DNA of 33,164 bases from an uncultured Alphaproteobacteria bacterium. Lineage in GTDB: Bacteria > Pseudomonadota > Alphaproteobacteria > RF32 > CAG-239. A model generated the notes under the pieces. It searched no databases. It had not been told where the DNA came from and was given only the letters and a program-made list of their open reading frames with translations. Below, piece after piece: positions 841 through 22,017 of the stretch. The position numbers and the translations under genes were made by a program. The stretch covers positions 1-33,164 of the forward strand of contig CAMAJR010000010.1 in assembly GCA_945835885.1 (NCBI GenBank). Reading direction: 5' to 3'. Numbering within the stretch: the first letter of the stretch is position 1; the number at the start of each line of letters is the position of its first letter.

Positions 841-2055
841 ATGCAAGAATACAGAACAATAGAAGATTTAGGCGATTTGAACGGCAAGGTCGTTATGTTG
901 CGTGCTGATTTGAATGTGCCGATGGATGAAAATTTTCATGTGACCAACACTGCGCGTATTGACCGCACCGTTCCGACCATTAAAACTCTAATGAAAAAAG
1001 GGGCAAAAGTAGTGGTTATTTCGCACTTCGGACGTCCGGAAGGTAAGGGTGATGTTAAAAATTCGTTGCGCCATGTGGCACCGGAACTCGAAAAAGCACT
1101 CGGTTCAAAGGTTGTGTTTGTGGACGATTGTATCGGCGAAGTTGTTGAAAATGCCGTTAAAAATATGAAGGCAGATGAAGTTTTGCTTTTGGAAAATCTG
1201 CGTTATTATAATGAAGAAAAGAAAGGTGATGCCGCTTGGGCCAAAGAATTGGTTAAAGTGGCAGATGCGTATGTTTCTGATGCGTTTTCAACCGCACACC
1301 GTGCACACGCTTCTATGGTTGCGGCACCGGAATTGCTGCCGTCGGCAATGGGGTTGCTGATGGCAGAAGAAGTTGCGGCTTTAACATCGGGGCTGAACAA
1401 TCCTAAACGTCCGTTGATGGCAGTTGTCGGTGGTTCTAAAGTTTCGACAAAGCTCGACCTCTTAAATAATTTGGTGAAAAAAGTTGATAAACTGGTAATT
1501 TCCGGCGGTATGGCGCATACATTTTTAAAAGTTTTGGGCGCAAACGGCATCAATGAAGAAAATTCACTGGTGCAACCGGATATGCTTGATACGGCTAAAG
1601 AAATTTTGAAAACAGCAAAAGAACACGGATGTGAAGTTATTTTGCCGGAAGATTTGGTGGTTGCGGAAGAATTTGCCGCCAATGCGCCGCATAAGACGGT
1701 TGATGTTGATAATGTTCCGGCAACCGGAACTTTGCTTGATGTCGGGGCAAAAACAATCGCCAAAATCAATGCAAAACTTGATGAGTGCAATACGTTGGTT
1801 TGGAATGGTCCGCTCGGTGCGTTTGAACTTAAACCGTTTGATACGGCAACCAATTTGGTGGCTCAACATGCGGCAAAACTGACTCAAGCCGGAAAATTGA
1901 CTTCAGTTGCCGGTGGCGGTGATACGGTATCGGCTTTGGCTAATGCCGGTGTGGCTGATAAATTCAGCTACATTTCGACAGCCGGCGGCGCATTCCTCGA
2001 ATGGATGGAAGGTAAGGAATTGCCTGGTGTCGCCATTATGAAAAAATCCGTATAA
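841..2055 (+). CDS. pgk: Phosphoglycerate kinase
   Basis: Transfers phosphate from 1,3-bisphosphoglycerate to ADP, giving 3-phosphoglycerate and ATP in the cytosol. At 404 residues it has normal length. The N-domain motifs are RADLNVP (about 21-27), ISHFGRPEG and LLENLRYY. The nucleotide-binding region has VVGGSKVSTKL, WNGPLGAFE and GGGDTVSAL. I start it at ATG 841, 8 nt after GAGG (829-832). An in-frame upstream start at 805 would lie inside the gapA terminator and adds an unconserved leader. After the conserved ELPGVA the protein carries an odd tail, IMKKSV. The last codons lie in the head of the intergenic repeat element that follows, so the tail may come from that element. Confidence 0.97.
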   Translation: MQEYRTIEDLGDLNGKVVMLRADLNVPMDENFHVTNTARIDRTVPTIKTLMKKGAKVVVISHFGRPEGKGDVKNSLRHVAPELEKALGSKVVFVDDCIGEVVENAVKNMKADEVLLLENLRYYNEEKKGDAAWAKELVKVADAYVSDAFSTAHRAHASMVAAPELLPSAMGLLMAEEVAALTSGLNNPKRPLMAVVGGSKVSTKLDLLNNLVKKVDKLVISGGMAHTFLKVLGANGINEENSLVQPDMLDTAKEILKTAKEHGCEVILPEDLVVAEEFAANAPHKTVDVDNVPATGTLLDVGAKTIAKINAKLDECNTLVWNGPLGAFELKPFDTATNLVAQHAAKLTQAGKLTSVAGGGDTVSALANAGVADKFSYISTAGGAFLEWMEGKELPGVAIMKKSV

Positions 2056-2420
2056 TGGGTAACTAATCGGGAGATTTTTCCTCGTGTACTATTTTGTGTA
2101 CACGTCGTTAAAATCTCCCTTCTTATTTACCGCATTCTCCGGATTTTTTTGTGTATGTTCTTTAATGTCGGTGTTCTCGGCTTATAGGCTTTTATTATAC
2201 ACTGCGCGAAAAGGGTAACAGTGTATCAGTTTCTTTCTCCGGATTTTTCCTCGTGTACCATTTTGTGTACACGTCGTTAAAATCTCCCTTCTTATTTACC
2301 GCATTCTCCGGATTTTTTTGTGTATGTTCTTTAATGTCGGTGTTCTCGGCTTATAGGCTTTTATTATACACTGCGCGAAAAGGGTAACAGTGTATCAGTT
2401 TCTTTCTCCGGATTTTTTTG
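2041..2420. repeat. Hairpin-bearing intergenic repeat element, copy 1, with internal tandem duplication
   Basis: This element fills the gap between convergent pgk (+) and the M20 peptidase gene (-). Its head, CGTATAATGGGTAACTAATC (2049-2068), overlaps the pgk stop codon. Next is a long hairpin: GGGAGATTTT (2069-2078) with AAAATCTCCC (2110-2119), and inside it CGTGTAC (2083-2089) with GTACACG (2098-2104). The tail contains TATTTACCGCATTCTCCG followed by a T run. Head, loop TATTTTG and tail recur at 11522-11814, with different stem arms. It is probably a REP/BIME-like or terminator-like repeat. No protein is apparent in it. Confidence 0.85.
2073..2410. repeat. 169-bp direct tandem duplication (2 copies)
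   Basis: Copy 1 is 2073-2241 and copy 2 is 2242-2410. By eye they differ at one base, T at 2090 versus C at 2259. The duplication starts inside the 5' arm of the first hairpin, so the second hairpin keeps GATTTT/AAAATC and CGTGTAC/GTACACG but loses the outer GGGA pairing. A partial third start (GATTTTTTTGTGT) follows at 2411. Near identity implies a recent duplication or active copy-number change. Confidence 0.93.
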
Positions 2421-2434
2421 TGTTTAGAAAGAGC

Positions 2435-3538
2435 TTATTTTTTTGCCAAATATTCCAAGAATTTAATCTGTATATCGGCAATTTGCTTAACACTCTCGAT
2501 TTCGACATATTCGTCTGAAGCGTGCATACCGTCGCCGGTACCCGAATGCATAATGACGGTCGAGCCCTTTACCGCAAAAGCGCGTGAATCGGTTGCCCCG
2601 CCGATGTGCTCAAACTCTATCGGCTTTCCCATAATATTTTCGGCAAAACGCTTGTAGTTCAAAATATCAGGATTATTCTCGTCCATCACGACCGGTGTGC
2701 TTGCGGAAACAATTTTGTATTCCACACCCTTAACCATACATTTTTGTAAGTTTTTTTCTAAATTTTCCACACTGGAATCTTCGGTCAGACGAAAGTCAAG
2801 CAGTGCCTCGGCATAGTTGGAAATAATGTTGGATACTTGTCCACCCTCGATTTTGGCAAAATGCACCGTATCAAACCAAGTGTCGCTCGGTTGTGGTAAA
2901 TCGGCGGCGTAATACGGATAAATTGCGCGAATATTTTGCCAAGTTTGCATCAGGAGTTCATTGGCATCAACCCCGTTCCACGGGGTAGAACCGTGCGCTT
3001 CTTTGCCGTGAGCGATGATTTTGACAAATACCGGATTTTTACATTTGCTGACAATTTTGGTAATGTCTCCGCCGACATCGTTGTCAAGCACGATACGAGC
3101 ACTGATTTGCGGATATGCTTCCATAAACGATTCGGTTGATTTACTGCCTTTTTCTTCATCGGTTGAGAGAATAACCCCGAATTTTATCGGCAGACTATGC
3201 GCGCATACATATTCCATAGAGTTCAGAGCAACGGCAGCAAATGATTTCATATCGAGTGTGCCGCGTCCGAACATTTTACCATCTCTAATTATCGGTTCAA
3301 ACATAGAATCATCTGCCGGCACTACGTCAATATGCCCCAAAATCACGACGTCAAAATCAAAGGAATCGCAGTTGCGCAGAAAAACAACAGGCGAGGCGGT
3401 TGTTTTAAAAATTTCAACTTTAGCCGCAGTGTCGGCAAATTTATTTTTAATATATTCCGCCGCTTTGGCTATTTCCGCTGCGTTGCCGGTTTCGGTGCGA
3501 AAACGAATAAGGTCTTGAGCCGTTTGTAATAAATCCAT
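2435..3538 (-). CDS. M20-family metallopeptidase (ArgE/DapE/CPG2-like deacylase)
   Basis: Zinc-dependent amidohydrolase of the M20 family, probably cytosolic, that cleaves an acyl group or peptide from an amino acid. Its 367 residues fit single-subunit M20 enzymes. Metal and catalytic residues are visible: GHIDVVP (H69, D71), GRGTLDMK (bridging D96), TDEEKGS (catalytic E near 128 plus a metal Glu), LDND (about 151-154), and a late MHSGTGDGMHASDEYV that supplies the last His. A dimerisation domain with HGKEAHGSTPWNGVDA lies between. AAGGA precedes the ATG. The substrate cannot be told: acetylornithine, succinyl-diaminopimelate and dipeptides are all possible. It converges on pgk across the repeat element. 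Confidence 0.85.
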   Translation of the reverse strand: MDLLQTAQDLIRFRTETGNAAEIAKAAEYIKNKFADTAAKVEIFKTTASPVVFLRNCDSFDFDVVILGHIDVVPADDSMFEPIIRDGKMFGRGTLDMKSFAAVALNSMEYVCAHSLPIKFGVILSTDEEKGSKSTESFMEAYPQISARIVLDNDVGGDITKIVSKCKNPVFVKIIAHGKEAHGSTPWNGVDANELLMQTWQNIRAIYPYYAADLPQPSDTWFDTVHFAKIEGGQVSNIISNYAEALLDFRLTEDSSVENLEKNLQKCMVKGVEYKIVSASTPVVMDENNPDILNYKRFAENIMGKPIEFEHIGGATDSRAFAVKGSTVIMHSGTGDGMHASDEYVEIESVKQIADIQIKFLEYLAKK

Positions 3539-3625
3539 TTTTTCTATCCTTTTTCAATAATTTTTTACCTTTTTTTTATATCTATACGCCATAATCATTT
3601 AAAATAAGTAAAAAGGAATTTAAAG

Positions 3626-4135
3626 ATGAAGTCATTGTTTGTTACAGTATTGGCGACGCTTTTGACTTGGAGTTCCGTGTCTTTGGCGCAGGTTGAAGAA
3701 GATGGCGACGAAACGGGATTGGCGTTACCGCGTATGGTGTCGCTTCGGTCAAGCCGTATCAATGCGCGTTCCGGTCCGGGCATCCGTTATCCGATTGAGT
3801 GGGTCTATCAGCAAAAAGGTGCGCCGGTAGAGATTATCGATGAATTTGAGCTGTGGCGCAAAATCAAAGATTGGGAAGGCACGGAAACTTGGGTGCATAA
3901 GGCGATGCTGTCGGGCAGACGTTTTGTTCGTGTGGCTAATCCGGGGGTGAATAATATTTATGCCAAACCGGAAAAAAATGCAAAAGTTATTGCTAAAGTT
4001 GAAGATGGCGTGGTCGGCGAAGTTGAAAAATGTCCGGCAGAAACGAAAATGTGTTTGATTCGGTTTGATAATATTCAAGGGTGGGTGCGCCGTAGCGCAT
4101 TGTTTGGTATTTATGACAACGAGGTGATAAAATAG
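3626..4135 (+). CDS. Secreted bacterial SH3 (SH3b) domain protein
   Basis: The protein has 169 residues. Residues 1-21 form a signal peptide ending SVSLA before QVEEDGDE. The rest is one or two SH3b-like folds: SLRSSRINARSGPGIRYPIEWVYQQKGAPVEII at about 40-72, then a second region with NIYAKPEKNAKVIAKVEDGVVGEV and GWVRRSALFGIY near the C-terminus. The RxGPGxxYP block is typical of the SH3-type-3 proteins common in alphaproteobacteria, which are thought to bind peptidoglycan in the periplasm. No catalytic motif is seen. It ends 3 nt before the recombinase gene and may be cotranscribed with it. Confidence 0.85.
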   Translation: MKSLFVTVLATLLTWSSVSLAQVEEDGDETGLALPRMVSLRSSRINARSGPGIRYPIEWVYQQKGAPVEIIDEFELWRKIKDWEGTETWVHKAMLSGRRFVRVANPGVNNIYAKPEKNAKVIAKVEDGVVGEVEKCPAETKMCLIRFDNIQGWVRRSALFGIYDNEVIK

Positions 4136-4138
4136 GCC

Positions 4139-5080
4139 GTGAAGCAGGAAATAACGTTTAATGCCGATACAGAGCTGACGGAGTTGATACATCGTTGGCA
4201 AGATTGGCTGTTAAAAGAGCGTTTGTATTCGGCACATACTTTGGCGGCGTATTCGCGCGATTTATCAATTTTTATGAAAAAAATCAGTCCGGATAAGGAG
4301 TTATCTTTAGCGGATTTATCGGCACTTGAAGTTTATGATTTTCGGCGCTTTTTGAGTGAGCGTGCGGCGCAATATATCAACAAATCATCAATGGGACGCG
4401 AGCTGTCAAGCATTAAAAACTTTTTTAAATGGTTAGAACGAAATGATTATGCCAAAAATTCGGCAATCAGCGTTATTTCTTCACCGCGTAAGCCGAAAAT
4501 TTTGCCAAAAGCACTCGATGAAACCGATGCTTTCCATTTGCTCGACGAAGCGGTTGATGTTGCAAGTTGCGCGTGGCAAGGACTGCGGGATAAAGCAATT
4601 TTGATTTTGCTTTACGGTTGCGGTTTGCGCATTTCCGAAGCCCTTGCGTTAAATGTCGGCGATATTTCTGCCGAAAGCGAGTTCCTTCGCGTCAAAGGTA
4701 AGGGAAATAAAGAACGTGTTGTTCCCTTGTTGCCGATAATTTGGCAGAATATCGAACAATACCTTGCAAAAAGCCCTTATACAGCCAACGTAGGAGAACC
4801 GTTGTTTGTCGGAGCCAGAGGTGAGCGATTAAGTCCGCGCATTGTGCAACGCCAAGTAGAAAAGTTGCGCGGCAGATTAGGCCTTGCTGATACGTTGACG
4901 CCCCATGCCTTACGCCATTCTTTTGCTACTCAGTTGCTTAAAGAGGGAGTTGACTTGCGCTCCATACAGGAATTATTGGGTCATTCATCCTTAATCACAA
5001 CCCAGCGCTATACCGATGTTCAAACCGAAACTTTGCAAAGAGAATACCATAAAGCGCATCCGCTTGAAAAGCAGAAATAA
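4139..5080 (+). CDS. xerC: Tyrosine recombinase, XerC type
   Basis: Site-specific recombinase that with XerD resolves chromosome dimers at dif beside FtsK. Its 313 residues are a normal length. An N-terminal SAM-like core-binding domain (about 14-105) is followed by the catalytic domain. All catalytic residues are present: R164 (GCGLRISEAL), K186 or K188 (VKGKGNKER), H256 and R259 (HALRHSFAT), H282 (LLGHSS) and nucleophile Y291 (QRYTDV). The ending YTDVQTETLQREYHKAHP resembles XerC more than XerD, which usually has YTHV. The start is GTG 4139 with weak SD support (GAGGTG about 12 nt upstream). It is a housekeeping recombinase and not evidence for an integrated element. Confidence 0.85.
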   Translation: MKQEITFNADTELTELIHRWQDWLLKERLYSAHTLAAYSRDLSIFMKKISPDKELSLADLSALEVYDFRRFLSERAAQYINKSSMGRELSSIKNFFKWLERNDYAKNSAISVISSPRKPKILPKALDETDAFHLLDEAVDVASCAWQGLRDKAILILLYGCGLRISEALALNVGDISAESEFLRVKGKGNKERVVPLLPIIWQNIEQYLAKSPYTANVGEPLFVGARGERLSPRIVQRQVEKLRGRLGLADTLTPHALRHSFATQLLKEGVDLRSIQELLGHSSLITTQRYTDVQTETLQREYHKAHPLEKQK

Positions 5081-5090
5081 AATATTGTCG

Positions 5091-5138
5091 AAAATCAGAC
5101 AACAAAAAAGAGGCCTGATTTTGTCGCGACCTCTCTTT
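5091..5138. terminator. Overlapping stem-loops between convergent xerC and rpmG
   Basis: AAAATCAG (5091-5098) pairs with CTGATTTT (5115-5122). AGAGG (5109-5113) pairs with CCTCT (5130-5134), and on the minus strand that second stem is followed by a T run (complement of 5103-5108), as for an rpmG terminator. The two stems overlap and exclude each other. The gap is short and convergent, which fits two-sided termination. Confidence 0.6.
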
Positions 5139-5159
5139 CTAATTCTTTATAACAGAAAA

Positions 5160-5327
5160 TTATTTTAATTTCTTTTCAACGAATTCTTCGTGCTTACGAG
5201 ATTTTTTATCATATTTTTTAACCGTAAGCTTTTCCGGATGCGTTCTCGGATTTTTTTCTGCCAAATAGAAAGAGCCGGTCCCGGCGGTGCTTTCCAACTT
5301 AATTTTAATTTTTACTGCTTTTGCCAT
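5160..5327 (-). CDS. rpmG: Large ribosomal subunit protein bL33
   Basis: A 55-residue, strongly basic ribosomal protein of the 50S subunit near the E site. The core [24 protein letters not shown] is diagnostic. The KYDxxxRKHxxFxExKLK ending fits the Gram-negative family. Zinc-binding CxxC pairs are absent, so this is the zinc-independent (C-) form. I start it at ATG 5327 ([10 protein letters not shown]). The frame stays open upstream to 5372 but adds an unconserved leader. It is monocistronic and converges on xerC. Confidence 0.96.
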
Positions 5328-5449
5328 TTTTTTACTCTTTTTCAGGTTAAAAGTTAAAACATTTAGGCGCATTATACATATTTCTGAGTGCTTGTCAATA
5401 GGTTTTTATGTAAAAGTGAAAAAATTTTTTACGTTTTTTTAAAAAAGAC

Positions 5450-5476
5450 TTGACAAAAAATCGGAGGGAATAAACT
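5450..5476 (+). promoter_or_regulatory. Candidate sigma70 promoter upstream of the split gene
   Basis: A perfect -35 TTGACA (5450-5455) and a weak -10 TAAACT (5471-5476) are separated by 15 nt, shorter than ideal. They lie 38 nt upstream of the ATG at 5515. Long A and T runs precede the -35 and could act as an UP element. Only the -35 is strong. Confidence 0.4.
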
Positions 5477-5514
5477 GAGAATAGACAGAAACATTTTTAT
5501 GAAAGGGCAAGACA

Positions 5515-6307
5515 ATGGAGTGTCAATCAGACTTTGAAACGCGTCGTGATGTGAAAAAAATGTTTGTTGCCAATGGTAAAGCACTTTATTTTGTTCCCGA
5601 TGGAACCGGTAAATATGAATTTTGCAGTAAAGATTCCTTATTACAAAAATGGTGTGAAACAATGAAAAACAAACGAGTGAAAGCAAACGCACTAAAATTC
5701 GTTGTAAGTGGAGCAAAAGACTATTTGAAAGGTAAAACTCAGCTCAGAGATACAAGTAATAGTGTTACGGCAAATTGGAAAGATAATCCGGTTGGAACAA
5801 ATGCATTATATCCGATTGAAAATTTTGGATAAGAGAGCGGTATTTTCCACAACTCGTGAACCGGGGAGTGATGGTGCGGCAAAAATTAAAGTGGCACTGA
5901 TTGCTGAAAATGATATGCCTACGACAAACGTGGCTCAAGTGATTATGGGACATTACGGACCGACAGGTAAGGCCGGAATTTATACTGCTATTTTCGGTGA
6001 TGAAGGAATGCCTTTTCCTGAAAATATCGCCAAACGTAGTCCCGATAACAAGGAGTTTATTGCTCACTGCCAAACATATTGGGGCAATCATGTGATGTTG
6101 ATAACACCTAAGAAATTGGAAGCAAATATTGCAAAATTAAAAGCACAAGGTATGTCGACAAAAACACCAGAATTGGCGTTGAAATCATTTCAGAATAGTG
6201 GTGAAAATTCACCGATTGTTAAGCATTTTGTTGCGGAAATTTCACCAAATGCCGTCAGATTACAGATGCCAACAGGCCGAACAGTCGGACCGAAACAATA
6301 CGAATAA
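5515..6307 (+). pseudogene. Unrecognised protein gene interrupted by a +1 frameshift (about 263 aa if restored)
   Basis: Two overlapping frames read as one protein. The 5' part (5515-5832, 105 aa, SD AAGGG at 5503-5507) ends PIENFG-stop, and the second frame continues DKRAVFSTTREPGSDGAA from 5828 to 6307. Removing one G of the GG at 5827-5828 joins them as ENF-DKRAVF. The joined product has no signal peptide or membrane segment. It is rich in Lys and contains GHYGPTGKAGIYTAIFGDEG and QTYWGNHVMLITP blocks. I do not recognise the family. Possibilities are a true frameshifted pseudogene, a programmed +1 shift at TTT GGA TAA, an assembly error, or two separate genes. A hairpin terminator follows. 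Confidence 0.6.
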
Positions 6308-6325
6308 TTTTTTACAATTTTACTA

Positions 6326-6360
6326 AAGAACCTCATGAGTATTTGTGAGGTTCTTAATTT
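6326..6360. terminator. Hairpin terminator shared by convergent genes
   Basis: AAGAACCTCA (6326-6335) pairs perfectly with TGAGGTTCTT (6346-6355) around a 10-nt loop, followed by AATTT (+). On the minus strand the same stem is followed by a TTTAGTAAAATTG tract. It separates the split gene (+) from the S41 protease gene (-). The T tracts are imperfect. Confidence 0.65.
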
Positions 6361-6378
6361 TAATTGTTGTGTTTCTCG

Positions 6379-7446
6379 TTAAATTTCATTTTTAAGCAAT
6401 TTTATTGCTTTATCAATGTCGTCATCTTGTTTGAGGCGGCTTTCACGGATGCAAACATCATTTTCCGTGCCGGAAAGGCATAAGTCCGGCTCAATTCCGT
6501 GTTTATGTATTGCTTTGCCGGACGGCGTGAAAAATTGCTCGGTGGTCAGCACAAGTTTGCCGCCGTTTGACATTTCGGTGACGTTTTGAATTGTGCCTTT
6601 ACCAAACGTATGCGCACCGATGAGTTTGGCTCTTGATTGCTCTTGCATACCGCCTGCCAAAACTTCTGCCGCCGAAGCCGTGCCGCCGTCTACCATAATG
6701 ACCATCGGGCCGGTGAACAGCGCTTTGTCACCGGTGGTATAATAATGTTTGTTGCGTTCGTTGCGGCCGGCAGTGTAAGTAACAATTGCGTTTTCACTGA
6801 ACATATTGGCAATTTTTAATGCCTCGTTGAGCATACCGCCGCTGTTGCCGCGCAAATCCAAGATAACGCCGACGGCACGAGGATTTTCTCGCAAAGATTG
6901 CTCAACCATTTTGGCTGATTGCTTATTGAAAACGCGCATTTTAATATAAAGCACGTTTTTAATCATACGGTCGGCATAAAGTGTGTAAATTACATTGTCG
7001 CGCTCGTGGTCAACATATTCAAATTGTGAATAATAGCCGGAGTATTTATCCATTTTGGATGTCATACCCTTCATCATTCGGTCGACTAACTGATAATCTT
7101 TAAGTTCTGCCGTTTCTGATACTTTGGTAATGTCGGTTAAGAGTTTATGCACGGCGTCCACCCAGCCGAGAATATCGCCGTTGTCTTTCGGAAACGGCAC
7201 AACGCTTTTAATGCGATAATTATAATAAACGTAAAAGCGGTCACGGCCTTTGGTAATTTTCAGCGCTCTATCCATCTCTGGCAGAGTTTTCAGTCCGGTA
7301 TAAATCATCTCGGCATTATCCACCGGTTCAAGATATTGATTATTGACGGTGGTCAGCATTTCATTGATGACACGTTTGTCAATAGTGCCTTCGGCAAATG
7401 CGGCGGTTGTCCATAACAAGCAAAAAATAAAAAACAGTTTCTTCAT
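6379..7446 (-). CDS. S41-family C-terminal processing peptidase without an evident PDZ domain
   Basis: Periplasmic serine protease of the CtpA/Prc family. Its 355 residues begin with a signal peptide (1-18, TTAAFA before EG). The catalytic Ser/Lys pair is clear: S258 in DGGTASAAEVLAGG and K283 in AHTFGKGTIQ. LDLRGNSGG at about 197-204 is also conserved. The substrate-binding PDZ domain normally sits between the cap helix region (here DKYSGYYSQFEYVD, 133-146) and the first core strand (here VLYIKMRVF, about 165-173). Only about 20 residues lie in between, so the PDZ seems to be missing. It follows xth with a 2-nt gap, so the two are probably one transcript. Confidence 0.88.
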   Translation of the reverse strand: MKKLFFIFCLLWTTAAFAEGTIDKRVINEMLTTVNNQYLEPVDNAEMIYTGLKTLPEMDRALKITKGRDRFYVYYNYRIKSVVPFPKDNGDILGWVDAVHKLLTDITKVSETAELKDYQLVDRMMKGMTSKMDKYSGYYSQFEYVDHERDNVIYTLYADRMIKNVLYIKMRVFNKQSAKMVEQSLRENPRAVGVILDLRGNSGGMLNEALKIANMFSENAIVTYTAGRNERNKHYYTTGDKALFTGPMVIMVDGGTASAAEVLAGGMQEQSRAKLIGAHTFGKGTIQNVTEMSNGGKLVLTTEQFFTPSGKAIHKHGIEPDLCLSGTENDVCIRESRLKQDDDIDKAIKLLKNEI

Positions 7447-7448
7447 TT

Positions 7449-8243
7449 TTAATCCTTAAATTCTGCAATTAAAACAGTATGATCGCTGGCTTTTTCGAGA
7501 GCGCGAAAATCACGGTCGATATTACAGGAAACGAGGCGGTCGGTCAAAGCCGGCGCGCTTAAAATATAATCGATACGTAGCCCTAAATCATTTTGAAACG
7601 AACCGGCGTTATAGTCCCAAAAAGTGTAGCCGGATGTGTGCGGAAATAATGCCCGATAAGTGTCGCACCAACCGGCACGCAACAATCGACGCAAACGGAT
7701 TTGAACTTCCGGTCGATAAAGGGCGTCGCCTTTAAATAATTCGGGATTATAAACATCTTGCGGAGTCATAATCACATTAAAATCACCGCCGAGAACAACG
7801 TTTTTTTTCGTGCGCAGCAGATTGTCGGCGTGCGTTATCAGAGCGTCCATCCATTTGAGCTTGTATTCAAATTTAGAAGTGTCTGTCAGACGATTGCTCG
7901 GCGGATTGCCGTTTGGCAAATATAACGAAGCGACGGTGTAATTTTGTGAGTTGATTTTGACAAGACATTCCAAATAGCGCGCATTTTCGTCAGGAAAATT
8001 CGGTAAATTTTCCGCTGTTACCTCAAGCGGATGCCGACTTATGAGCGCAACGCCGTTATAGCTTTTTTGCCCGAGTATTTTGGCTTCGTAACCAAGCATC
8101 TGCAAATCAAAGAACGGAAAGTTGTTAAACTCTGTTTTTATTTCTTGCAAAAGCATAATATCGGGATTGTTTTTCCCGAGCCAAGCGCATAAATTATTCA
8201 GGCGCGCATTTACGGAATTTATGTTTAGAGTTGCAATTTTCAT
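7449..8243 (-). CDS. xth: Exodeoxyribonuclease III / AP endonuclease
   Basis: Mg-dependent nuclease of the EEP superfamily that cleaves 5' of abasic sites and degrades duplex DNA 3'-5' in base-excision repair. Its 264 residues match bacterial ExoIII. Motifs seen are N7 (ATLNINSVNAR), E34 (LLQEIKT), the catalytic Tyr region (SLYLPNGNP), GGDFNV, GLRIDYIL and the terminal SDHTV with the catalytic His. It is the first gene of a two-gene minus-strand unit with the S41 protease. It diverges from the SPOR gene across 127 nt. Confidence 0.95.
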   Translation of the reverse strand: MKIATLNINSVNARLNNLCAWLGKNNPDIMLLQEIKTEFNNFPFFDLQMLGYEAKILGQKSYNGVALISRHPLEVTAENLPNFPDENARYLECLVKINSQNYTVASLYLPNGNPPSNRLTDTSKFEYKLKWMDALITHADNLLRTKKNVVLGGDFNVIMTPQDVYNPELFKGDALYRPEVQIRLRRLLRAGWCDTYRALFPHTSGYTFWDYNAGSFQNDLGLRIDYILSAPALTDRLVSCNIDRDFRALEKASDHTVLIAEFKD

Positions 8244-8370
8244 ATTATATCCTTTGTTTTTACTATAATCGTTTTTTTGAGAATGAAAAGATTTTTTTTA
8301 TTGTGTTAAATGATTTTAAAGAGTAGAAGTTGTATAAGCAATATAGATTACGAAAAAATAGAGAGGGAAT

Positions 8371-9282
8371 ATGTATCAGAATTTTGATAACAAAAACGGT
8401 GAAGAATATCTTGATGCCTTCAAACAAAAAGTGGCAAAACAAAAAATTGCCACAATGGAAGAACGCCGCAACGAAATGACACGTTCACGCAATAATTTTT
8501 TGGGAACATTGGCAGGTGCGATATTGGCTCTTGCGGTCGGTTGGTTTATTTTGATGCCGCAATATCAGCAAACAAATAAAGATGTGCCGACTATTCGTCG
8601 CTCACAGACTGCCGTTAAGATTAAACCGGATAATCCGGGCGGTATGGAAATTCCAAATCAGGATAAAGATGTTTATAATCTGGTTGAAAAGAAAGAGGTG
8701 GATAATACGGTTGTCGAAAATCTGTTACCGACTCCGGAACAGCCGAAATTGCCGGATATTGTGCCGGATACGGTTGATGTGCAAGCCGATAATATAGATG
8801 AGTTGGTGGAAGAAATAGCTGATGATACCGATGTTGCCGTTCCGAACAAACCGGAAGATTTGCTTTCCGAATCTGCGAAAAATGTTGCCGATGACGTAAA
8901 AGCGGCGGAAGAAAAGGCCAAAGCTGAAGCTAAAGCGGCAGAAGAAAAGGCCAAAGCCGAAGCTAAAGCGGCGGAAGAAAAGGCCAAAGCCGAAGCCAAA
9001 GCGGCGGAAACGGCAGTAAAATCCGTTGCGGGCGGAAAGTGGCAAGTTCAATTTGTTGCCTCTAAAAATAAAGATGCTGTTGAAAAAACTTGGACGAACT
9101 TAACCCAAAAATACAGTATGCTCAAAGCATACACGCATGAAATTCAATCGGCTGATTTGGGGGCGCAGGGTAAAATTTACAGATTGCGTGCCGGAAGTTT
9201 TGCCACCAAAGAAGAAGCAGCAAAAGTTTGCAGTATGCTCAAAGCAAAAGGTATGAATGATTGCATTGTTAAAGAGCGTTAG
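8371..9282 (+). CDS. SPOR-domain inner-membrane protein
   Basis: Its 303 residues have the layout of a division-linked SPOR protein. There is a cytoplasmic N-terminus with charged helices (1-42), one transmembrane segment (about 43-62, FLGTLAGAILALAVGWFIL), a long acidic Pro-rich periplasmic linker, a TolA-like Ala/Lys/Glu helix made of three 11-residue repeats (about 178-210), and a C-terminal SPOR domain (about 222-303; KWQVQFVASKNKDAVEKTW, YRLRAGSFATKEEAAKVCSMLKAKG). SPOR domains bind denuded glycan strands at the septum. AGAGGG precedes ATG 8371. The stop TAG directly abuts the nagZ ATG, which implies translational coupling. Confidence 0.92.
   Translation: MYQNFDNKNGEEYLDAFKQKVAKQKIATMEERRNEMTRSRNNFLGTLAGAILALAVGWFILMPQYQQTNKDVPTIRRSQTAVKIKPDNPGGMEIPNQDKDVYNLVEKKEVDNTVVENLLPTPEQPKLPDIVPDTVDVQADNIDELVEEIADDTDVAVPNKPEDLLSESAKNVADDVKAAEEKAKAEAKAAEEKAKAEAKAAEEKAKAEAKAAETAVKSVAGGKWQVQFVASKNKDAVEKTWTNLTQKYSMLKAYTHEIQSADLGAQGKIYRLRAGSFATKEEAAKVCSMLKAKGMNDCIVKER
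8902..9000 (+). repeat. Three 33-bp in-frame tandem repeats coding AAEEKAKAEAK
   Basis: The units are 8902-8934, 8935-8967 and 8968-9000 and differ only at silent third positions. They encode a charged helix likely to span periplasmic distance. Such repeats vary in copy number between strains, which would lengthen or shorten the SPOR protein stalk. Confidence 0.93.
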
Positions 9283-10329
9283 ATGAAAAAAGTTTTACCT
9301 GCTTTTTTATCTTGTCAGGGCGCACGTTTAAGTGATGATGAAAAGCGTTTGTTTGAACGTTATAATCCGCTTGGCGTGTGCCTTTTTTCTAAGTTCTGTG
9401 CCAACATCGAATCTCGAGAACAGGTGCAAAATCTGGTGCAAGACATTAAAGAAGCGGTCGGTCACAATAAGGTTTTGATTGCAGTCGATCAAGAAGGCGG
9501 ACGTGTGCGGCGCTTGGTTGAACCGGAGTTTATGCCGGTGGCGGCGCAACAAAATATGACAACCGTTGAATTGGCTGAACAACATGCATATTTAATCAGC
9601 AAAGATTTACACGATTGCGGGATTAACGTCAATTTTGCGCCGGTGCTCGATAAGATGACACCGCAAACATCAAATGTTTTGCAAGGACGCTGTTTTGACA
9701 GTAATATAGCCGAACTCGGACGGGCGATGGTCGATACTTATGTGCGACAGGGAATTTGTCCGTGCGTTAAGCATCTGCCCGGACACGGTCGCGCGGCGGT
9801 TGATCCGCATTTGGAATTGCCGGTCATCAATGAGGATTTGGCTGTTTTACAAGAGGATTTTGCGCCGTTTAGGGCACTTAGCGATGCACCGATGGGGATG
9901 GTGGCACACATTGTGTTGTCAGCGGTTGATACACAAAATGCCGCAACGCTGTCGGCAAAAGTTATTCGGGAAATTATACGCGGTCAAATCGGTTTCAGCG
10001 GTGTTTTGGTTTCTGATGCGATTATGATGCAAGCGCTTAAAGGGACCGTTGCCGAACGTGCCGAACACGCGATTGCGGCCGGTTGCGATGTGGTTTGTTT
10101 AGGAAATGCCGGATTTGAGGCAAATTTTGAATTATGCCAAAGCAATATTGTAATGACCGACGAAGCAGCCGAACGGGTGAATAAAGTGTTTCAACTTATT
10201 GAAAAAACACCTGATTTTTCAGATTATGAATATGTAAAAAATAAATATTGTGCTACTTTGAAAAATATTGTATCTTACAATTACGATTATGACGCGACAG
10301 AAATTTTGAACAGGTTGCGTCAGGCATAA
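9283..10329 (+). CDS. nagZ: Beta-N-acetylhexosaminidase (glycoside hydrolase family 3)
   Basis: Cytosolic enzyme that removes N-acetylglucosamine from imported anhydromuropeptides during peptidoglycan recycling. Its 348 residues form a single GH3 TIM barrel, the normal NagZ length. It shows VDQEGGRVRRL (about 68-78), NFAPVLD, the KHLPGHGRAAVDPH loop (163-176) that carries the NagZ catalytic His/Asp dyad, and the nucleophile D245 in VSDAIMM. It directly abuts the SPOR gene and precedes a TatA-like gene. In many alphaproteobacteria the order is SPOR - nagZ - scpA - scpB - tatA. Here scpA and scpB are not between them. Confidence 0.95.
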   Translation: MKKVLPAFLSCQGARLSDDEKRLFERYNPLGVCLFSKFCANIESREQVQNLVQDIKEAVGHNKVLIAVDQEGGRVRRLVEPEFMPVAAQQNMTTVELAEQHAYLISKDLHDCGINVNFAPVLDKMTPQTSNVLQGRCFDSNIAELGRAMVDTYVRQGICPCVKHLPGHGRAAVDPHLELPVINEDLAVLQEDFAPFRALSDAPMGMVAHIVLSAVDTQNAATLSAKVIREIIRGQIGFSGVLVSDAIMMQALKGTVAERAEHAIAAGCDVVCLGNAGFEANFELCQSNIVMTDEAAERVNKVFQLIEKTPDFSDYEYVKNKYCATLKNIVSYNYDYDATEILNRLRQA

Positions 10330-10351
10330 ATTTCAGACAAGGAGGAATATT

Positions 10352-10780
10352 ATGGGGGGATTTATGGGTTGGTTTTTGACGTTTTTGCTGGTGTTGGCAA
10401 TATTTAATGCCGAAAAACTGCCGGAATTGCGTGCAAAGTTAGAAGAAAAAATCAAAGACAGCGTCGATGCTGCCAAAGAGGGCTCTAAATTGGCTTCTGA
10501 TAAAATCAAACAGGTGAAGAGCGATATCGAAAATAAGAAAAATGCCGTAGCCGCTCCGGAAGAAGCGGAAGAAAATACACCGGAAGAAATTGAAGAATCT
10601 CTCAAGTTTATGGGCAATTATCTAAAACAGGAGGCAGAGAATAATTCCGCGCAAAAGAATACCGAAATTACAGATACTCCGATTGTTGACGGAAAAGCAG
10701 AGACAGAGAAGAAACAAGCTGAAATACCGTCAACGGAAACAGATGATGACAAACCGATTGATTTGGAAAATCGTTACTGA
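10352..10780 (+). CDS. TatA/TatB-like membrane protein
   Basis: Its 142 residues start with a short hydrophobic helix (about 3-19) and the hinge FNAEKLPELRAKLEEKIKD. This matches the transmembrane, FGxxKLPEL and amphipathic-helix plan of TatA/B twin-arginine translocase subunits. A long acidic, low-complexity tail follows (about 60-142). Differences are FN in place of the conserved FG, and a tail longer than usual for TatA. Its place after nagZ is where tatA lies in many alphaproteobacteria, which supports the call. tatC is not in the window. A strong SD, AAGGAGG (10339-10345), precedes ATG 10352. It could instead be a paralogue with another role. Confidence 0.65.
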   Translation: MGGFMGWFLTFLLVLAIFNAEKLPELRAKLEEKIKDSVDAAKEGSKLASDKIKQVKSDIENKKNAVAAPEEAEENTPEEIEESLKFMGNYLKQEAENNSAQKNTEITDTPIVDGKAETEKKQAEIPSTETDDDKPIDLENRY

Positions 10781-10798
10781 TGATATAAAAAAGAATCG

Positions 10799-10836
10799 AA
10801 AATTAAGGCAATATTAAACATATTGCCTTAATTTTT
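10799..10836 (+). terminator. Intrinsic terminator after the TatA-like gene
   Basis: A perfect stem of at least 14 bp, AATTAAGGCAATAT (10801-10814) with ATATTGCCTTAATT (10820-10833), extended by A-T pairs on both sides. It has a 5-nt loop and ends in a T run (10832-10836). It closes the SPOR - nagZ - TatA-like unit. Confidence 0.9.
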
Positions 10837-10871
10837 ATGTATTAAGTTTAATCTAACGGAAAGTTCTGAGT

Positions 10872-11519
10872 ATGAAAAAAATATTGTTGCTTGCCGGTGT
10901 TGCGTGTTTTTTTGCTTGTGATGCCGATGCATTGACGGTTCGACCATATGTTGCGCTTAAGGGAAAGGTTGCCGTAACCAATAATCGCGTTAAAGTGATT
11001 CAACGTGATGAATTTATTGATTATGACCACGATATAAAAGTAAATAAAGTCATTATGGGCGGAAGTGCCGCGTTTGGTATGATGTTTCCGTTCAATTATC
11101 AGTCGGTGCGTATGGAAGTTGAATATACGCACAACAAAAAGGCCTCTAAAGATGTGGCGGCCCAAAAGAGCGCGCCGACAATAGATGCTTCGGTGCAAAC
11201 CAAGGCCGTTTTCGGAAACATTTATTATGACTTTCAATCCACATCGGCTTGGGTGCCATATATCGGCGGCGGTCTCGGCGCGGCTAAGCTGAAAACGGTG
11301 GCAATGGAAGAAAGTGACAATAAATCGACATTTGCGTGGAACGCCGGTTTCGGTTTGCAATATCGGATGTCTCGCAACGGTTCGTTTGATTTAGGGTATC
11401 GGTATGTTGACTACGGAAGTTTTAAACGGCATTTTAATGATACATACAGATATAAGGAAAATGACAAGATTGCAGCCGCCGCGCATGAAGTGTATTTTGG
11501 GCTTCGTCTCACCTGGTAA
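10872..11519 (+). CDS. Outer-membrane beta-barrel protein
   Basis: The protein has 215 residues. A signal peptide (about 1-20, LLLAGVACFFACDADA before LTVRPYV) is followed by a series of amphipathic strands: RPYVALKGKVAV, SAAFGMMFPF, VRMEVEYTHNK, TKAVFGNIYYDF, WVPYIGGGLGAAKL, FAWNAGFGLQYRM, SFDLGYRYVDYG and HEVYFGLRLTW. The GGLGA turn, GxGLQYR strand and YRYxDYG resemble OmpA-like or surface-antigen 8-stranded barrels. It ends in an aromatic residue, as outer-membrane barrels often do. No peptidoglycan-binding domain is present. It may act as a structural protein or adhesin; function is not resolved. It is monocistronic between a terminator and the second repeat element. Confidence 0.85.
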   Translation: MKKILLLAGVACFFACDADALTVRPYVALKGKVAVTNNRVKVIQRDEFIDYDHDIKVNKVIMGGSAAFGMMFPFNYQSVRMEVEYTHNKKASKDVAAQKSAPTIDASVQTKAVFGNIYYDFQSTSAWVPYIGGGLGAAKLKTVAMEESDNKSTFAWNAGFGLQYRMSRNGSFDLGYRYVDYGSFKRHFNDTYRYKENDKIAAAAHEVYFGLRLTW

Positions 11520-11521
11520 TA

Positions 11522-11824
11522 AAAAAATTCGTATAACGGGTAACTAATCAAAGGTTTTCTTGCTTATGTGCTATTTTGCACACCGCGCAAGGAAACCTTT
11601 TTCTATCTGCCTCGTTAGCCGCGTTTTTTGCGTGTGCGCCTGCGCCAACTCGCTTACTGCGTATTTACCGCATTCTCCGAATTTTTTTTGCGTGCCGTAT
11701 GACGAGGAAACCTTTTTCTATCTGCCTCGTTAGCCGCGTTTTTTGCGTGTGCGCCTGCGCCAACTCGCTTACTGCGTATTTACCGCATTCTCCGAATTTT
11801 TTTGCGTGCCGTATAAGAGGCGGC
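11522..11824. repeat. Hairpin-bearing intergenic repeat element, copy 2, with internal tandem duplication
   Basis: Occupies the gap between the convergent barrel gene (+) and the DUF378 gene (-). The head CGTATAACGGGTAACTAATC (11530-11549) differs at one base from that of copy 1 (2049-2068). The hairpin arms are AAAGGTTTTCTTGC (11550-11563) and GCAAGGAAACCTTT (11587-11600), with one G-U pair, and inner TGTGC/GCACA (11567-11571, 11578-11582) around loop TATTTT. The tail again has TATTTACCGCATTCTCCG and a T run. The arm sequences are unlike those of copy 1, yet the fold is kept. Confidence 0.85.
11590..11814. repeat. About 115-bp direct tandem duplication (2 copies)
   Basis: Copy 1 is 11590-11704 and copy 2 starts at 11705, ending at the repeated GCCGTAT (11808-11814). 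The copies match except for one T fewer in the poly-T tract of copy 2. The duplication starts in the 3' arm of the hairpin, so copy 2 has no 5' arm. This parallels the 169-bp duplication at 2073-2410. Confidence 0.92.
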
Positions 11825-12025
11825 TTATTTTTTAATTATTTTCGGGGTGTTGATAAAATAGGCGTATAAAACATAACAAGCGGCGAGGGCGATAATGATT
11901 TCAACAATAGAAATCAAAATCGGCGCAAACGATAAAATATTTAACACATTAAGGTCAAACGCACCGACCAATCCCCAGTTGATGCCGCCGATAATCGTTA
12001 AAAGCAGTGCTGTTTTTTCTAACAT
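11825..12025 (-). CDS. DUF378 small membrane protein
   Basis: A 66-residue protein with two transmembrane helices (about 5-25 and 38-58). The sequence LLTIIGGINWGLVGAFDLNVL matches the GGINWGLVG signature of the DUF378 (YuzA-like) family, whose function is unknown. I start it at ATG 12025 because AAGGAG lies 8 nt upstream on the minus strand. The open frame runs on to 12229, but that would overlap pgpA on the other strand. It is divergent from pgpA. Confidence 0.88.
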   Translation of the reverse strand: MLEKTALLLTIIGGINWGLVGAFDLNVLNILSFAPILISIVEIIIALAACYVLYAYFINTPKIIKK

Positions 12026-12140
12026 TTTTTTTCTCCTTGTATAAGTTTGTGTAAAAACCGCAATAATGTTTGCCAATAATTCACGGTTCTTATAACATAA
12101 TTTCAATATTGAACAAATCAAGCAGATGAAAGGATAAAAA

Positions 12141-12623
12141 ATGTCAGAAAAACTTGCGTTGATTATTGCTACATATTTTGGGCTGGGTTTATCGCCGAAA
12201 GCTCCGGGGACTGTCGGCTCAATCGGCACGATACCGTTGGCATTTGTGTTGGCATATTTTTTTGGAATCTACGGGATTATCGTGGCGGCAATTCCGATAG
12301 CGATTGTCGGCATTTATGCAACCGATGTGCTGATTCGCGAGCAAGAAGAAAAAGACCCGGGCAAAGTGGTGGTAGATGAAGTTGTCGGGCAGTTGCTGGC
12401 GTTTGTGTTTGTGGCTGATGCGCTTAAAGGTAACCTTAATGACTGGTGGCTCTACTTGGTCGGTTTGGCGGCGTTTCGCTTTTTTGATATTTGCAAAATG
12501 GGGCCGGTCAAATGGTTTGATTCTAAGGTAAAAAACGCGTTCGGCGTGATGATGGACGATGTTTGCGCCGGCTTGATGGGCGGTGCGGTTGTTTGGGCTG
12601 TCAAAACCTATTTCATCGGCTAA
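12141..12623 (+). CDS. pgpA: Phosphatidylglycerophosphatase A
   Basis: Inner-membrane phosphatase that dephosphorylates phosphatidylglycerophosphate to phosphatidylglycerol. Its 160 residues match the family. The conserved blocks GLGLSPKAPGTVGSIG, DPGKVVVDEVVGQL and AFRFFDICKMGPVKWFD...GVMMDDVCAG contain the Asp/Glu metal and catalytic residues, set among four hydrophobic segments. AAGGA lies upstream of ATG 12141. It is monocistronic, with hairpins directly after the stop. In many alphaproteobacteria it sits with thiL or cinA; neither is present here. Confidence 0.95.
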   Translation: MSEKLALIIATYFGLGLSPKAPGTVGSIGTIPLAFVLAYFFGIYGIIVAAIPIAIVGIYATDVLIREQEEKDPGKVVVDEVVGQLLAFVFVADALKGNLNDWWLYLVGLAAFRFFDICKMGPVKWFDSKVKNAFGVMMDDVCAGLMGGAVVWAVKTYFIG

Positions 12624-17274: not shown

Positions 17275-17308
17275 CGACCTCTTCCGGTCGCTCGTTCGGT
17301 TCGTCGCA
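17275..17308. repeat. 34-bp dispersed repeat, copy 1
   Basis: Identical by eye over 34 bp to 18247-18280, and in the same orientation. It contains the small dyad CGACC-N6-GGTCG (17275-17290). The two copies lie 972 bp apart (start to start) and bracket the structured RNA candidate and the nuclease-like gene. The GC-rich composition stands out from the AT-rich flanks. Confidence 0.92.
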
Positions 17309-17495: not shown

Positions 17496-17710
17496 TGTTG
17501 GGAAGTGCCCAAACCTAGCAAGGAATCGTTATCCTAAACAATGTGGGCAATGAAATGGTGTTTTTGTGTAAAAATACCTATTTTAACCAGTTGGGCAGAC
17601 ACCGATATGGTGGATGCCACTGAAATAAGGCCTTGCACGAATATGTGGGCTACTTATCACATTGTTTGTAGTAACGACATCCACCGCCTAGTGCGTTTTA
17701 CTTGGGCTGA
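17496..17710 (+). ncRNA. Candidate structured RNA of about 200 nt (unrecognised)
   Basis: Nested long-range pairings suggest one elongated hairpin: GCCCAA (17507-17512) with TTGGGC (17702-17707), CTAG (17515-17518) with CTAG (17688-17691), TCGTTA (17526-17531) with TAACGA (17672-17677), and AAACAATGTG (17536-17545) with CACATTGTTT (17658-17667). Inside lie GGTGTTTTT-GTGT-AAAAATACC (17557-17578) and CACC-N5-GGTG (17600-17612). The size and long-rod shape recall 6S RNA, but I cannot confirm that family. A protein frame is open through this stretch from 17541, but its translation is Trp/Cys-rich and unlike a real protein. It may be a free RNA or the leader of the nuclease gene. Confidence 0.5.
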
Positions 17711-17717
17711 TTGGTGT

Positions 17718-18182
17718 TTGTCATTGTTTAAGTTTATTGCAACTACATTTATCTCATTTATATTATATGTGCAATCTGTGTCTGCACATGAGTTTGTTGC
17801 AACTATAATCAAAATAAATGATGGTGATACTTTAAGTGCATTTGTGAACAATGAAAATACTAAGATAAGACTGCTTGATGTTGATTGTTATGAAACCAAG
17901 AAGAACGCAAGAGCAAAATTTCAGCAAAAATACTATGGATTATCGGTTGATGAAGTGCTTAAAAAAGGTAAGCAATCACGGAAAACCTTAAAACAATTAC
18001 TGAAAGATCATCGGTATATACGGGTTGAGTGGGAAAAACGCGATTCTTTCGGTCGTATTTTAGGTAAAGTGTATTTAGATGACATTAAATCTGCCGGCAT
18101 AATTGATGTTAATCAGTATATGCTCAAAACCGGTGGCTGCAATAAATATGTGCCATCCAGCGTATCAAAAAAAAGCAAGTAA
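17718..18182 (+). CDS. Secreted staphylococcal nuclease-like (SNase/thermonuclease) protein
   Basis: Small OB-fold nuclease family that cleaves DNA and RNA with Ca. From TTG 17718 the product has 154 residues. It opens with a convincing signal peptide (SLFKFIATTFISFILYVQSVSA before HEFVATI), followed by the SNase core INDGDTLSAF, KIRLLDVDCYETK and DSFGRILGKVYLDD. These carry the equivalents of catalytic Arg35, Asp40, Glu43 and Arg87, so activity is plausible. The frame is open back to ATG 17541, but that extension covers the foldable RNA segment and lacks an SD, so I prefer 17718; TTG 17724 is also possible. SD support is weak for every candidate start. An intrinsic terminator follows. Confidence 0.75.
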   Translation: MSLFKFIATTFISFILYVQSVSAHEFVATIIKINDGDTLSAFVNNENTKIRLLDVDCYETKKNARAKFQQKYYGLSVDEVLKKGKQSRKTLKQLLKDHRYIRVEWEKRDSFGRILGKVYLDDIKSAGIIDVNQYMLKTGGCNKYVPSSVSKKSK

Positions 18183-18246: not shown

Positions 18247-18280
18247 CGACCTCTTCCGGTCGCTCGTTCGGTTCGTCGCA
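18247..18280. repeat. 34-bp dispersed repeat, copy 2
   Basis: Second copy of the 17275-17308 repeat, in direct orientation. It lies between the nuclease terminator and the tRNA-Asp terminator. Both copies sit shortly after the 3' end of a gene (smpB, nuclease). Confidence 0.92.
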
Positions 18281-21024: not shown

Positions 21025-22016
21025 TTACGTTTGCCTATCCGCAATTACTTTGGCTTTCGGTGTTGCCGTTTTTGGCTTATTATATGTTACCGGCGGCGCG
21101 GAAAATGTATGGCGATGCGTTGCATGTGCCGTTTGTGCGTGATATTTCAAAAATCAATGAAGAAAATAAATTCAGTTTTCGGACAGCGTTATACGGCAAA
21201 ATAAAAAGTTATTGGAAATTGTTTTTGTTATGTTTGATTTGGGGATTATGGATTGTGGCGTTATGTCGGCCTCAATGGGTAGGTGAACCACACAAAGTTC
21301 GTATGGAATCGCGCGATATTATGTTGGTTGTCGATATTTCACCATCAATGCAAGAACAAGACTTTTTGTATCAGGGCAGATATTACAGCCGGTTGGCGGC
21401 AGTTAAAAATGTGGTATCCGCTTTTGCCGATGCGCGTGTTGATGATCAAATCGGTTTAATCGTTTTCGGTTCGCGCGCATATCAGCAAGTGCCGCTGACA
21501 TACGACAGACAGTCACTTAAGGAAGTGCTTTATGCAATAGAAGGCGGTATGGCCGGCAATTCGACCTCTATCGGTGATGCCGTCGGTTTGGCGCTTAAAA
21601 ATTTGTCTGCCGATGAAACGCCGGTGCAAAACAAAGTGGTGGTTTTGTTGACCGACGGTATTAACAATGACGGACGCTTGACTTTTCCGCAAGCCATCAA
21701 TATGGCAGAAAAAGAAAATATCAAAATATACACAATCGGTATGGCCAGTGACAGATTGGTTTGGGGCGGTTTGTTTGGAACCGTCAGCGCTGATTTAGAC
21801 GAAGAAAGTTTGCAACAATTGGCCGAAGCTACAAAAGGAAATTATTTCAGAGCAACCGATTTGCAATCACTTTATGCGGTGTATAACGAAATCAATCGTT
21901 TGGAAACCCAAAACAAAGAAGGACAATTTGTGCAAGAGCGAAAAGATTTATTTTACTATCCGATAACGTTGGCATTGTTGCTTTTTGTGCTTTTGTTTGC
22001 GGTGGGGAGAAAGTAA
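21021..22016 (+). CDS. batA: BatA, von Willebrand factor A domain membrane protein
   Basis: The 331-residue protein has two N-terminal hydrophobic segments (about 5-25 and 70-90), a VWA domain with an intact MIDAS (D105-x-S107-x-S109 in VVDISPSMQ; NSTSIGDA; LLTDGINNDG), and a C-terminal TM helix (about 310-328). Bat proteins form an inner-membrane complex linked to stress and aerotolerance and usually work with a MoxR AAA+ ATPase. MoxR and DUF58 genes normally adjoin this cluster but are not seen here. An M23 gene occupies the upstream side. Confidence 0.92.
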   Translation: MITFAYPQLLWLSVLPFLAYYMLPAARKMYGDALHVPFVRDISKINEENKFSFRTALYGKIKSYWKLFLLCLIWGLWIVALCRPQWVGEPHKVRMESRDIMLVVDISPSMQEQDFLYQGRYYSRLAAVKNVVSAFADARVDDQIGLIVFGSRAYQQVPLTYDRQSLKEVLYAIEGGMAGNSTSIGDAVGLALKNLSADETPVQNKVVVLLTDGINNDGRLTFPQAINMAEKENIKIYTIGMASDRLVWGGLFGTVSADLDEESLQQLAEATKGNYFRATDLQSLYAVYNEINRLETQNKEGQFVQERKDLFYYPITLALLLFVLLFAVGRK

Positions 22017-22017
22017 G

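Follow-up and report, generated by a model that had tools for sequence, protein, structure and literature searches.

A family of gene-end hairpins in an alphaproteobacterial order, with both stem arms differing together at orthologous sites

Two imperfect hairpins lie at gene ends in a 33,164-nt stretch of DNA (the window, analysed at its full length; contig C10 in our numbering) from an uncultured alphaproteobacterium. The host genome (G000) comprises 1.51 Mb in 91 contigs, and we take its order to be RF32 of GTDB. The named genomes with the nearest phosphoglycerate kinase gene (pgk) are metagenome-assembled genomes of Alphaproteobacteria, several of them with a rumen or reticulum source. Here, we report that the two hairpins belong to an order-wide family of roughly 110-bp elements that, in the genus examined, mostly stand directly behind stop codons. 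The arm swap between members is real: comparison of sister species at orthologous sites shows agreement in the flanks and the outer stem, with a joint difference in both inner arms.

Two hairpins at convergent gene ends

Element 1 (2041–2150, + strand) lies 3′ of pgk (805–2055, +; domain match to PF00162), whose end it overlaps, and the gene converging on it encodes an M20 peptidase (2435–3538, −). Element 2, a hairpin with an AAAGG core (11521–11630, +), lies 3′ of a gene for an outer-membrane β-barrel protein (10872–11519, +; domain match to PF13505) and is faced by a convergent gene for a DUF378 protein (11825–12229, −; domain match to PF04070). Genes were called as the longest non-overlapping open reading frames (ORFs), with no trained gene finder; these calls and the domain matches confirm the initial annotation in placing both elements between convergent genes.

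Both elements fold as long imperfect hairpins (−43.1 kcal/mol for element 1 and −39.0 kcal/mol for element 2) and match R1, a covariance model described below, at 119 bits (2042–2150; element 1 is one of its seeds) and 69.1 bits (11523–11630), respectively. The common plan, clearest in element 1, begins with an outer stem running from an A-run to a T-run; further in come an internal loop of 3 nt on each side, a second stem bulged on one side, a short stem of the TAC/GTA type, a variable inner stem and, at the apex, a TGTA/TACA hairpin. In the fold of element 1, the 5′ outer stem with the A-run (2041–2050) pairs with the 3′ outer stem (2140–2149), which continues into the T-run. The pgk stop codon (2053–2055) lies within the element at model positions 12–14, the 5′ inner arm GGGAGATTTT (2069–2078) pairs with the 3′ inner arm AAAATCTCCC (2110–2119), and the apical hairpin CGTGTAC-loop-GTACACG (2083–2104) falls within the most conserved part of the family. 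The inner arms of element 2, AAAGGTTTTCTTGC (11550–11563) and GCAAGGAAACCTTT (11587–11600), likewise pair with each other.

These features bear out the initial annotation in its claims of a shared head, loop and tail and of unlike stem arms that each pair with their own partner. The heads (2038–2068 and 11519–11549) are 90% identical over 31 nt, TATTTT is present in both loops and TATTTACCGCATTCTCCGRATTTTTTT is contained in both copies. The hairpins themselves are as described there, with starts that lie earlier (2041 and 11521), so that element 1 takes in the stop codon of pgk. The shared 18-bp tail is present at both sites; at element 2, however, it is not the closing tail of the AAAGG hairpin, which is closed by its own tail TCTATCTGCCTCGTTAGCCGCG. 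It belongs instead to a separate, unpaired 3′ half of another core (11641–11689), as seen by comparison with locus L353 of the relative G005; G005 has a whole element at the same site, and the 3′ half of that element is similar but not identical. Two tandem duplications had gone unmentioned. At element 1, 2242–2410 is a second unit of 169 bp, without the 5′ head, that copies 2073–2241 at 99% identity; at element 2, 11705–11803 copies 11590–11688 (99 bp, 100%), and further units extend to about 11807.

An order-wide family behind stop codons

A blastn search with either element gave partial and full copies elsewhere in G000. The R1 covariance model, built from eight copies, holds 38 pairs, 21 of them with two-sided change. 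Its search of G000 returned 17 full-length copies, counted by hand among 35 listed matches, some of them reverse-strand readings or tandem units. With E-values down to 6e-25 and nine new copies besides the eight seeds, which match by construction, the genome-wide search proposed earlier rules out chance. At E ≤ 0.001, R1 has matches in 23 of 38 genomes: its own, all 21 congeners, the single other genome of the order and none of the 15 others of the class. A second model, R2, built from 82 copies, matches 90 of 100 genomes of the order and all 15 of its genera at E ≤ 1e-4, and 3 of 94 genomes outside the order in the same class (G206, G162 and G201). Copy numbers are lower bounds, as the first pass of the genome searches scored part of the candidates (150 of 300 for R1 in G000; 38 per genome for R2). 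Several copies are found no more than about 400 bases from a contig end (L138, L145, L147, L172, L196 at 2359–2469, L209 at 68–174, L226 and L258); such repeats may interrupt assemblies, which may be a second cause of underestimated copy numbers.

For the analyses that follow, we used 103 full-length, better-strand copies out of 162 matches in 99 loci at E ≤ 1e-4, after removal by hand of partial units, places held twice in two loci and reverse-strand readings. All but one (L189, in G022) come from the host genus, and their length is 105–112 nt; because loci were taken from the tops of ranked lists, weak copies are under-represented. In Rfam 15, ten element loci had no match to E ≤ 1, a scan of the window at gathering cut-offs gave only tRNA, and the scans taken together gave only tRNA and 6S RNA; membership in a known RNA family was rejected on these scans. 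For phage carriage, one exact apical pattern, covering one class of copies, had no match in viral contigs. A literature search of titles and abstract openings, with subscription journals mostly outside it, turned up no description that we recognised of this hairpin family or of paired arm exchange between dispersed hairpins. At two loci (L003 and L240), GTCATTC-type repeats stand near an element, and at a third (L064) they stand behind pgk; we take them to recall dRS3/CGTC repeats.

The family is tied to gene ends. In 87 of the 102 copies with a called left gene, the element begins between −14 and +6 nt relative to a same-strand gene's stop codon. A stop codon occupies match positions 12–14 in 94 of 103 copies (4 of 103 when the opposite strand is read), and the element can thus supply its own stop. 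The pgk product ends in KKSV in G000 and in KK in most of the relatives' printed ends. Genes preceding elements include rpsA, rplA, rpsD, rpoA, nusG, dnaK and pgk. When one representative of each of ten groups of upstream genes was assigned by NCBIfam, nine were FabG, S1, L1, DnaK, S4, ClpX, KdsB, NusG and RpoA, and the tenth was a histidine kinase, under its cut-offs. The suggestion that all copies lie between convergent genes does not hold across the family: 45 copies do, 3 are between divergent genes, 2 have an antisense left gene, 16 are not scorable and the others lie between tandem genes. One copy lies 3′ of a 6S RNA gene, in G000 and G005 and not at that site in G003 and G001; as this gene has no stop codon, the common denominator may be the end of the transcription unit.

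Comparison of pgk sites shows the element in the place of an ordinary terminator. We located pgk in 23 of 26 genomes; an element follows it in four (G000, G003, G005 and, with another core and another join, G018), and a degenerate remnant follows it in G014. At 16 of the 18 other pgk sites, a hairpin with a T-run scoring at least 10 lies within about 150 nt (the threshold was set after the scores had been viewed, and two of the 16, in G007 and G017, are doubtful by eye). The four element sites have only weak hairpins (≤7.2) or none scored. By eye, the element at rpoA is reduced in G001 to a short hairpin and a T-run, and the rplA site of G003 has a decayed element with an ordinary hairpin after it. 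At least five of the last ten nucleotides are T in 75 of 103 copies and not so in 28. Intrinsic (Rho-independent) terminators likewise close a transcription unit with a stem and a T-run, and the replacement at pgk leads us to read the element as a terminator. On this sequence evidence, the elements likely act as transcription terminators, and the earlier proposal of gene-end position with a likely terminator role is supported. They differ from intrinsic terminators in that they are about 110 nt long, begin at the stop codon and belong to one homologous repeat family; usual terminators are shorter.

Paired arms and their replacement at fixed sites

Pairing is maintained copy after copy across the lineage, as the initial annotation had proposed. 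In an alignment of 82 copies (A3; MAFFT, with an RNAalifold structure), two-sided changes occur in 31 of 33 pairs, including eight of the nine pairs of the outer helix. Paired cells amount to 93.7%, against a mean of 75.3% after shuffling, and two-sided cells to 495, against a shuffled mean of 134; none of 500 shuffles reaches either value. One-sided cells total 50. With partners slid by 1–3 columns, 31.5–56.4% of cells pair. As the structure was derived from the same 82 copies, the pairing percentages are biased towards it, and relatedness among copies inflates the contrast with the shuffles.

Covariation of this kind is usually read as a sign of selection on RNA, and it would be expected if the elements were structured RNAs of 3′ untranslated regions in which ordinary compensatory point substitutions accumulate under selection on the fold, the swap being a saturation of such changes. 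The orientation, which is that of the upstream gene, and the T-rich ends also fit this explanation. The numbers of one-sided and two-sided cells speak against it, and so do the mismatches. In a stem under RNA-level selection, G·T (that is, G·U) should be better tolerated than A·C. Among isolated stem mismatches in the 103 copies, we counted 29 G·T and 39 A·C against 4,056 Watson–Crick pairs, and the columns of A3 gave 55 G·T and 77 A·C. By contrast, 138 distinct terminator-like hairpins used as a control (at most one mismatch and no apical motif; taken from these and related loci, chance hairpins included) gave 45 G·T and 22 A·C. Fisher's test between elements and control gives p = 0.0056, a guide only, as the alignment rules differ, the copies are related and the control contains chance hairpins. 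That G·T is not commoner than A·C argues against slow compensation at the RNA level and for copying between dispersed copies at the DNA level. The count of G·T against A·C thus offers a simple test to separate selection on RNA from exchange of arm pairs, through which covariation can also arise.

The arm swap itself is seen most directly between the sister genomes G009 and G002, which we compared at 11 full-length G009 places (from 24 listed matches, including reverse readings). All 11 sites are occupied in both genomes. We read the core as the same at five, another core stands in the same outer stem at three (kdsB, rpoA and rplA), and three differ more (L237, L243 and L244). At kdsB, rpoA and rplA, the 200-nt flanks are 94–95% identical and the 13-nt head is 100% identical, while identity in the segment between is 69–78%. 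At rplA, the two genomes agree over the first 28 nt and over the tail, which spans CTGCGTATTAACC to the T-run; TTCGCCGACTGTC/GACAGTCGGCGAA stands opposite AAAGTCCTTTTGC/GCAAAAGGACTTT, with almost nothing else changed. The 5′ arms recur in their own genomes with at most two mismatches: that of rplA in G009 at three other loci, that of kdsB in G002 at two and that of rpoA in G002 at one.

The second element site of the window shows the same behaviour. With flanks 87% identical over 200 nt, G000 has AAAGGTTTTCTTGC where G005 has TAAGCGGGTTGGC...GCCAACCCG, which recurs at three other places of G005 (L251 and L356 counted as one place). Each genome also retains a downstream 3′ half that resembles the core of the other, so that either version may be the older. 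At rpsA, a different whole element stands in G002, followed by a 3′ half that resembles its counterpart in the G009 element. We infer that such left-over 3′ halves, including 11641–11689 in the window, are relics of earlier occupants. How both strands of a stem change without a broken intermediate is an old question; here, arm pairs are seen replaced together when orthologous sites are compared between sister species. At all four sites compared, one version of the two is found again elsewhere in the genome that carries it, which makes DNA-level copying between copies directly testable.

The whole arm pairs that differ within nearly identical flanks, together with the missing G·T excess, lead us to consider ordinary RNA-level compensation improbable as the explanation, and selection on an RNA fold, which the initial annotation put forward beside selection on a DNA fold, is not supported as the cause of the swaps. 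Multi-base compensatory changes could also arise by foldback template switching within a single hairpin (quasi-palindrome correction), in which one arm is rewritten from the other; such changes are described for this process (PMC8794818, in the accessible part of that report), and it would fit the absence of G·T intermediates. Correction of this kind should erase mismatched loops, yet 171 isolated C·T or T·C mismatches are kept in the 103 copies, and the recurrence of arms elsewhere in the same genome would stay unexplained; we regard foldback switching as quite improbable.

A further explanation invokes mobility. A miniature inverted-repeat transposable element (MITE) or an element like the repetitive extragenic palindromic (REP) sequences, moved in trans by a hairpin-reading transposase, could exchange versions by excision and re-insertion at favoured gene ends. 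The dispersal of the copies fits, as do the separate version behind pgk in G018 and the 6S RNA site filled in some genomes only (through gain or loss). Matches to the Y1 transposase (PF01797) occur in 9 of 26 genomes, three of which (G016, G039 and G040) have 17–21 element matches, the Y1 match being whole in G039 and a fragment of 38–39 model positions in G016 and G040. Y1, the only transposase family searched, is however absent from G000 and from eight other genomes with many copies (G001, G002, G003, G005, G009, G013, G017 and G018), which disfavours mobilization by a REP-associated tyrosine transposase (RAYT) or IS200 as the main route and, with it, the kinship to RAYT-driven REP elements suggested earlier. 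The outer ends vary with compensation, so there is no fixed terminal repeat, and between G009 and G002 every compared site is filled in both and the outer stem stays while the core changes at three. As to the mobility proposed in the initial annotation, presence varies at some sites, such as pgk and 6S RNA, and not at these 11; we think transposition in trans an improbable source of the swaps.

We favour, with some reserve, an account in which this order-wide family, likely of terminators, has both arms replaced as a unit, probably by copying within the same genome. When replication or repair stalls at a hairpin, it would change template to a dispersed copy, whose core, with both arms and intact loops, would be copied until a return switch in the shared outer part; a late return would leave the 3′ half as a downstream unit, as at element 2 of the window. 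Either gene conversion or a template switch at a stalled fork could be the route. Selection would maintain the conserved loops and apical module, which may serve as a protein-binding site on DNA or RNA. We prefer copying between dispersed copies because it accounts for arms that are replaced in pairs while the loops stay intact, for sites that stay fixed and for the 3′ halves left behind. Simple slippage may account for the tandem units and not for paired replacement, and was rejected.

Several observations weigh against this account. At kdsB and rpoA of G009, rplA of G002 and element 2 of G000, no second copy of the alternate 5′ arm was found among the collected loci, a set short of whole genomes. 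The nearest core belongs to another locus in another genome for 59 of the 103 copies, to the same genome for 28 and to the same locus for 16, and the copies are related, so that the 103 are not independent. The sequence shared outside the arms is short for RecA. As to distribution, 10 of 100 genomes of the order lack a match to R2. G206, a member of a different order of the class, has 29 matches that follow the family's layout and resemble it in the apical module, and three other genomes of its order have none; this occurrence may reflect patchy spread or transfer. As to position, the start does not fall at a same-strand stop codon in 15 of 102 copies (in 13 of these, a same-strand gene lies on the left at another distance), and 37 of the 87 scorable copies lie between tandem genes. 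By eye, copies lie between rpmD and rplO, inside an apparent ribosomal protein operon (L187, L188, L209 at 656–764 and L162; three of the four lack a T-run), and at least two hairpins of G206 (L304–L315) seem to precede genes; such copies are not obvious terminators.

Two further possibilities would assign the exchange to an enzyme. In one, gene-end hairpins form a genome-wide pool of exchangeable cassettes, and a dedicated enzyme, recognizing on single-stranded DNA both the conserved internal loops and the apical module CTYRTGTA/TACACNNCG, swaps whole stem cores between terminators; we consider this unlikely, while giving it some weight. In the other, the elements are attC-like sites, where a tyrosine recombinase acts on single-stranded hairpins that carry extrahelical bases. 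The combination of variable arms and conserved unpaired positions would suit such sites, and tyrosine recombinases match in all 26 genomes searched. The window's own recombinase is best matched by XerC, under the cut-off of that model, and the integron integrase (TIGR02249), on which an integron would depend, exceeds its cut-off in none of the 26 genomes; an integron was therefore rejected, and attC-like recombination is very improbable.

Known repeats and other features of the window

Dispersed palindromes near gene 3′ ends are also a feature of the REP GTAG and CGTC superfamilies (including dRS3 and RPE-4/RPE-6), which often lie between convergent or tandem genes; in the accessible part of the source, these are given as 20–40 bp long with a tag tetranucleotide and frequent GT pairs, the CGTC type, common in Alphaproteobacteria, having stems of 8–9 bp (PMC3733652). 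The present family differs in its length, its several conserved internal loops, its lack of a terminal tag and its few GT pairs. In place of the 8–9-bp stem, 4–5-nt loop and CGTC end tag of that type, it has an apical stem of about 5–7 bp and CGTC internally, in many and not all copies, and the RAYT that goes with GTAG elements is missing from G000. A MITE has a fixed terminal inverted repeat, whereas the outer helix here changes on both sides. YPAL/RU-2 of Yersinia is likewise a hairpin-bearing element at gene ends or dyad symmetry: a mobile element that targets dyad symmetry and is co-expressed with upstream genes, it is larger (about 168 bp) and makes target-site duplications of 3 to 26 bp, with no arm exchange mentioned in the accessible part of the report (PMC2229807). 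Families of stem-loop sequences are also defined by a shared hairpin, and paired arm replacement at orthologous sites is not described in the part of that work available (PMC2267715). Changes in RNA stems have been shown to fit template switching, in which multi-base compensation arises in one event at the DNA level and one arm is rewritten from a nearby strand (PMC8794818, in part); here, by contrast, the arm pair differs, the loops are kept and the arms recur at other loci.

Elsewhere in the window, the tyrosine recombinase is encoded at 4139–5080 (+), about 2 kb from element 1, with 309 bits against a cut-off of 335 for its best NCBIfam match, XerC. An exact 34-nt repeat, CGACCTCTTCCGGTCGCTCGTTCGGTTCGTCGCA, at 17275–17308 and 18247–18280 flanks an ORF (17541–18182, +) that is weakly similar, far under the curated cut-offs, to models of the calcium-activated nuclease EcnA and of thermonuclease. 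A further ORF (21985–23991, +) has weak, sub-cut-off matches to VWA domains and, in its later part, degenerate repeats rich in codons of the CAA/CAG/AAT type.

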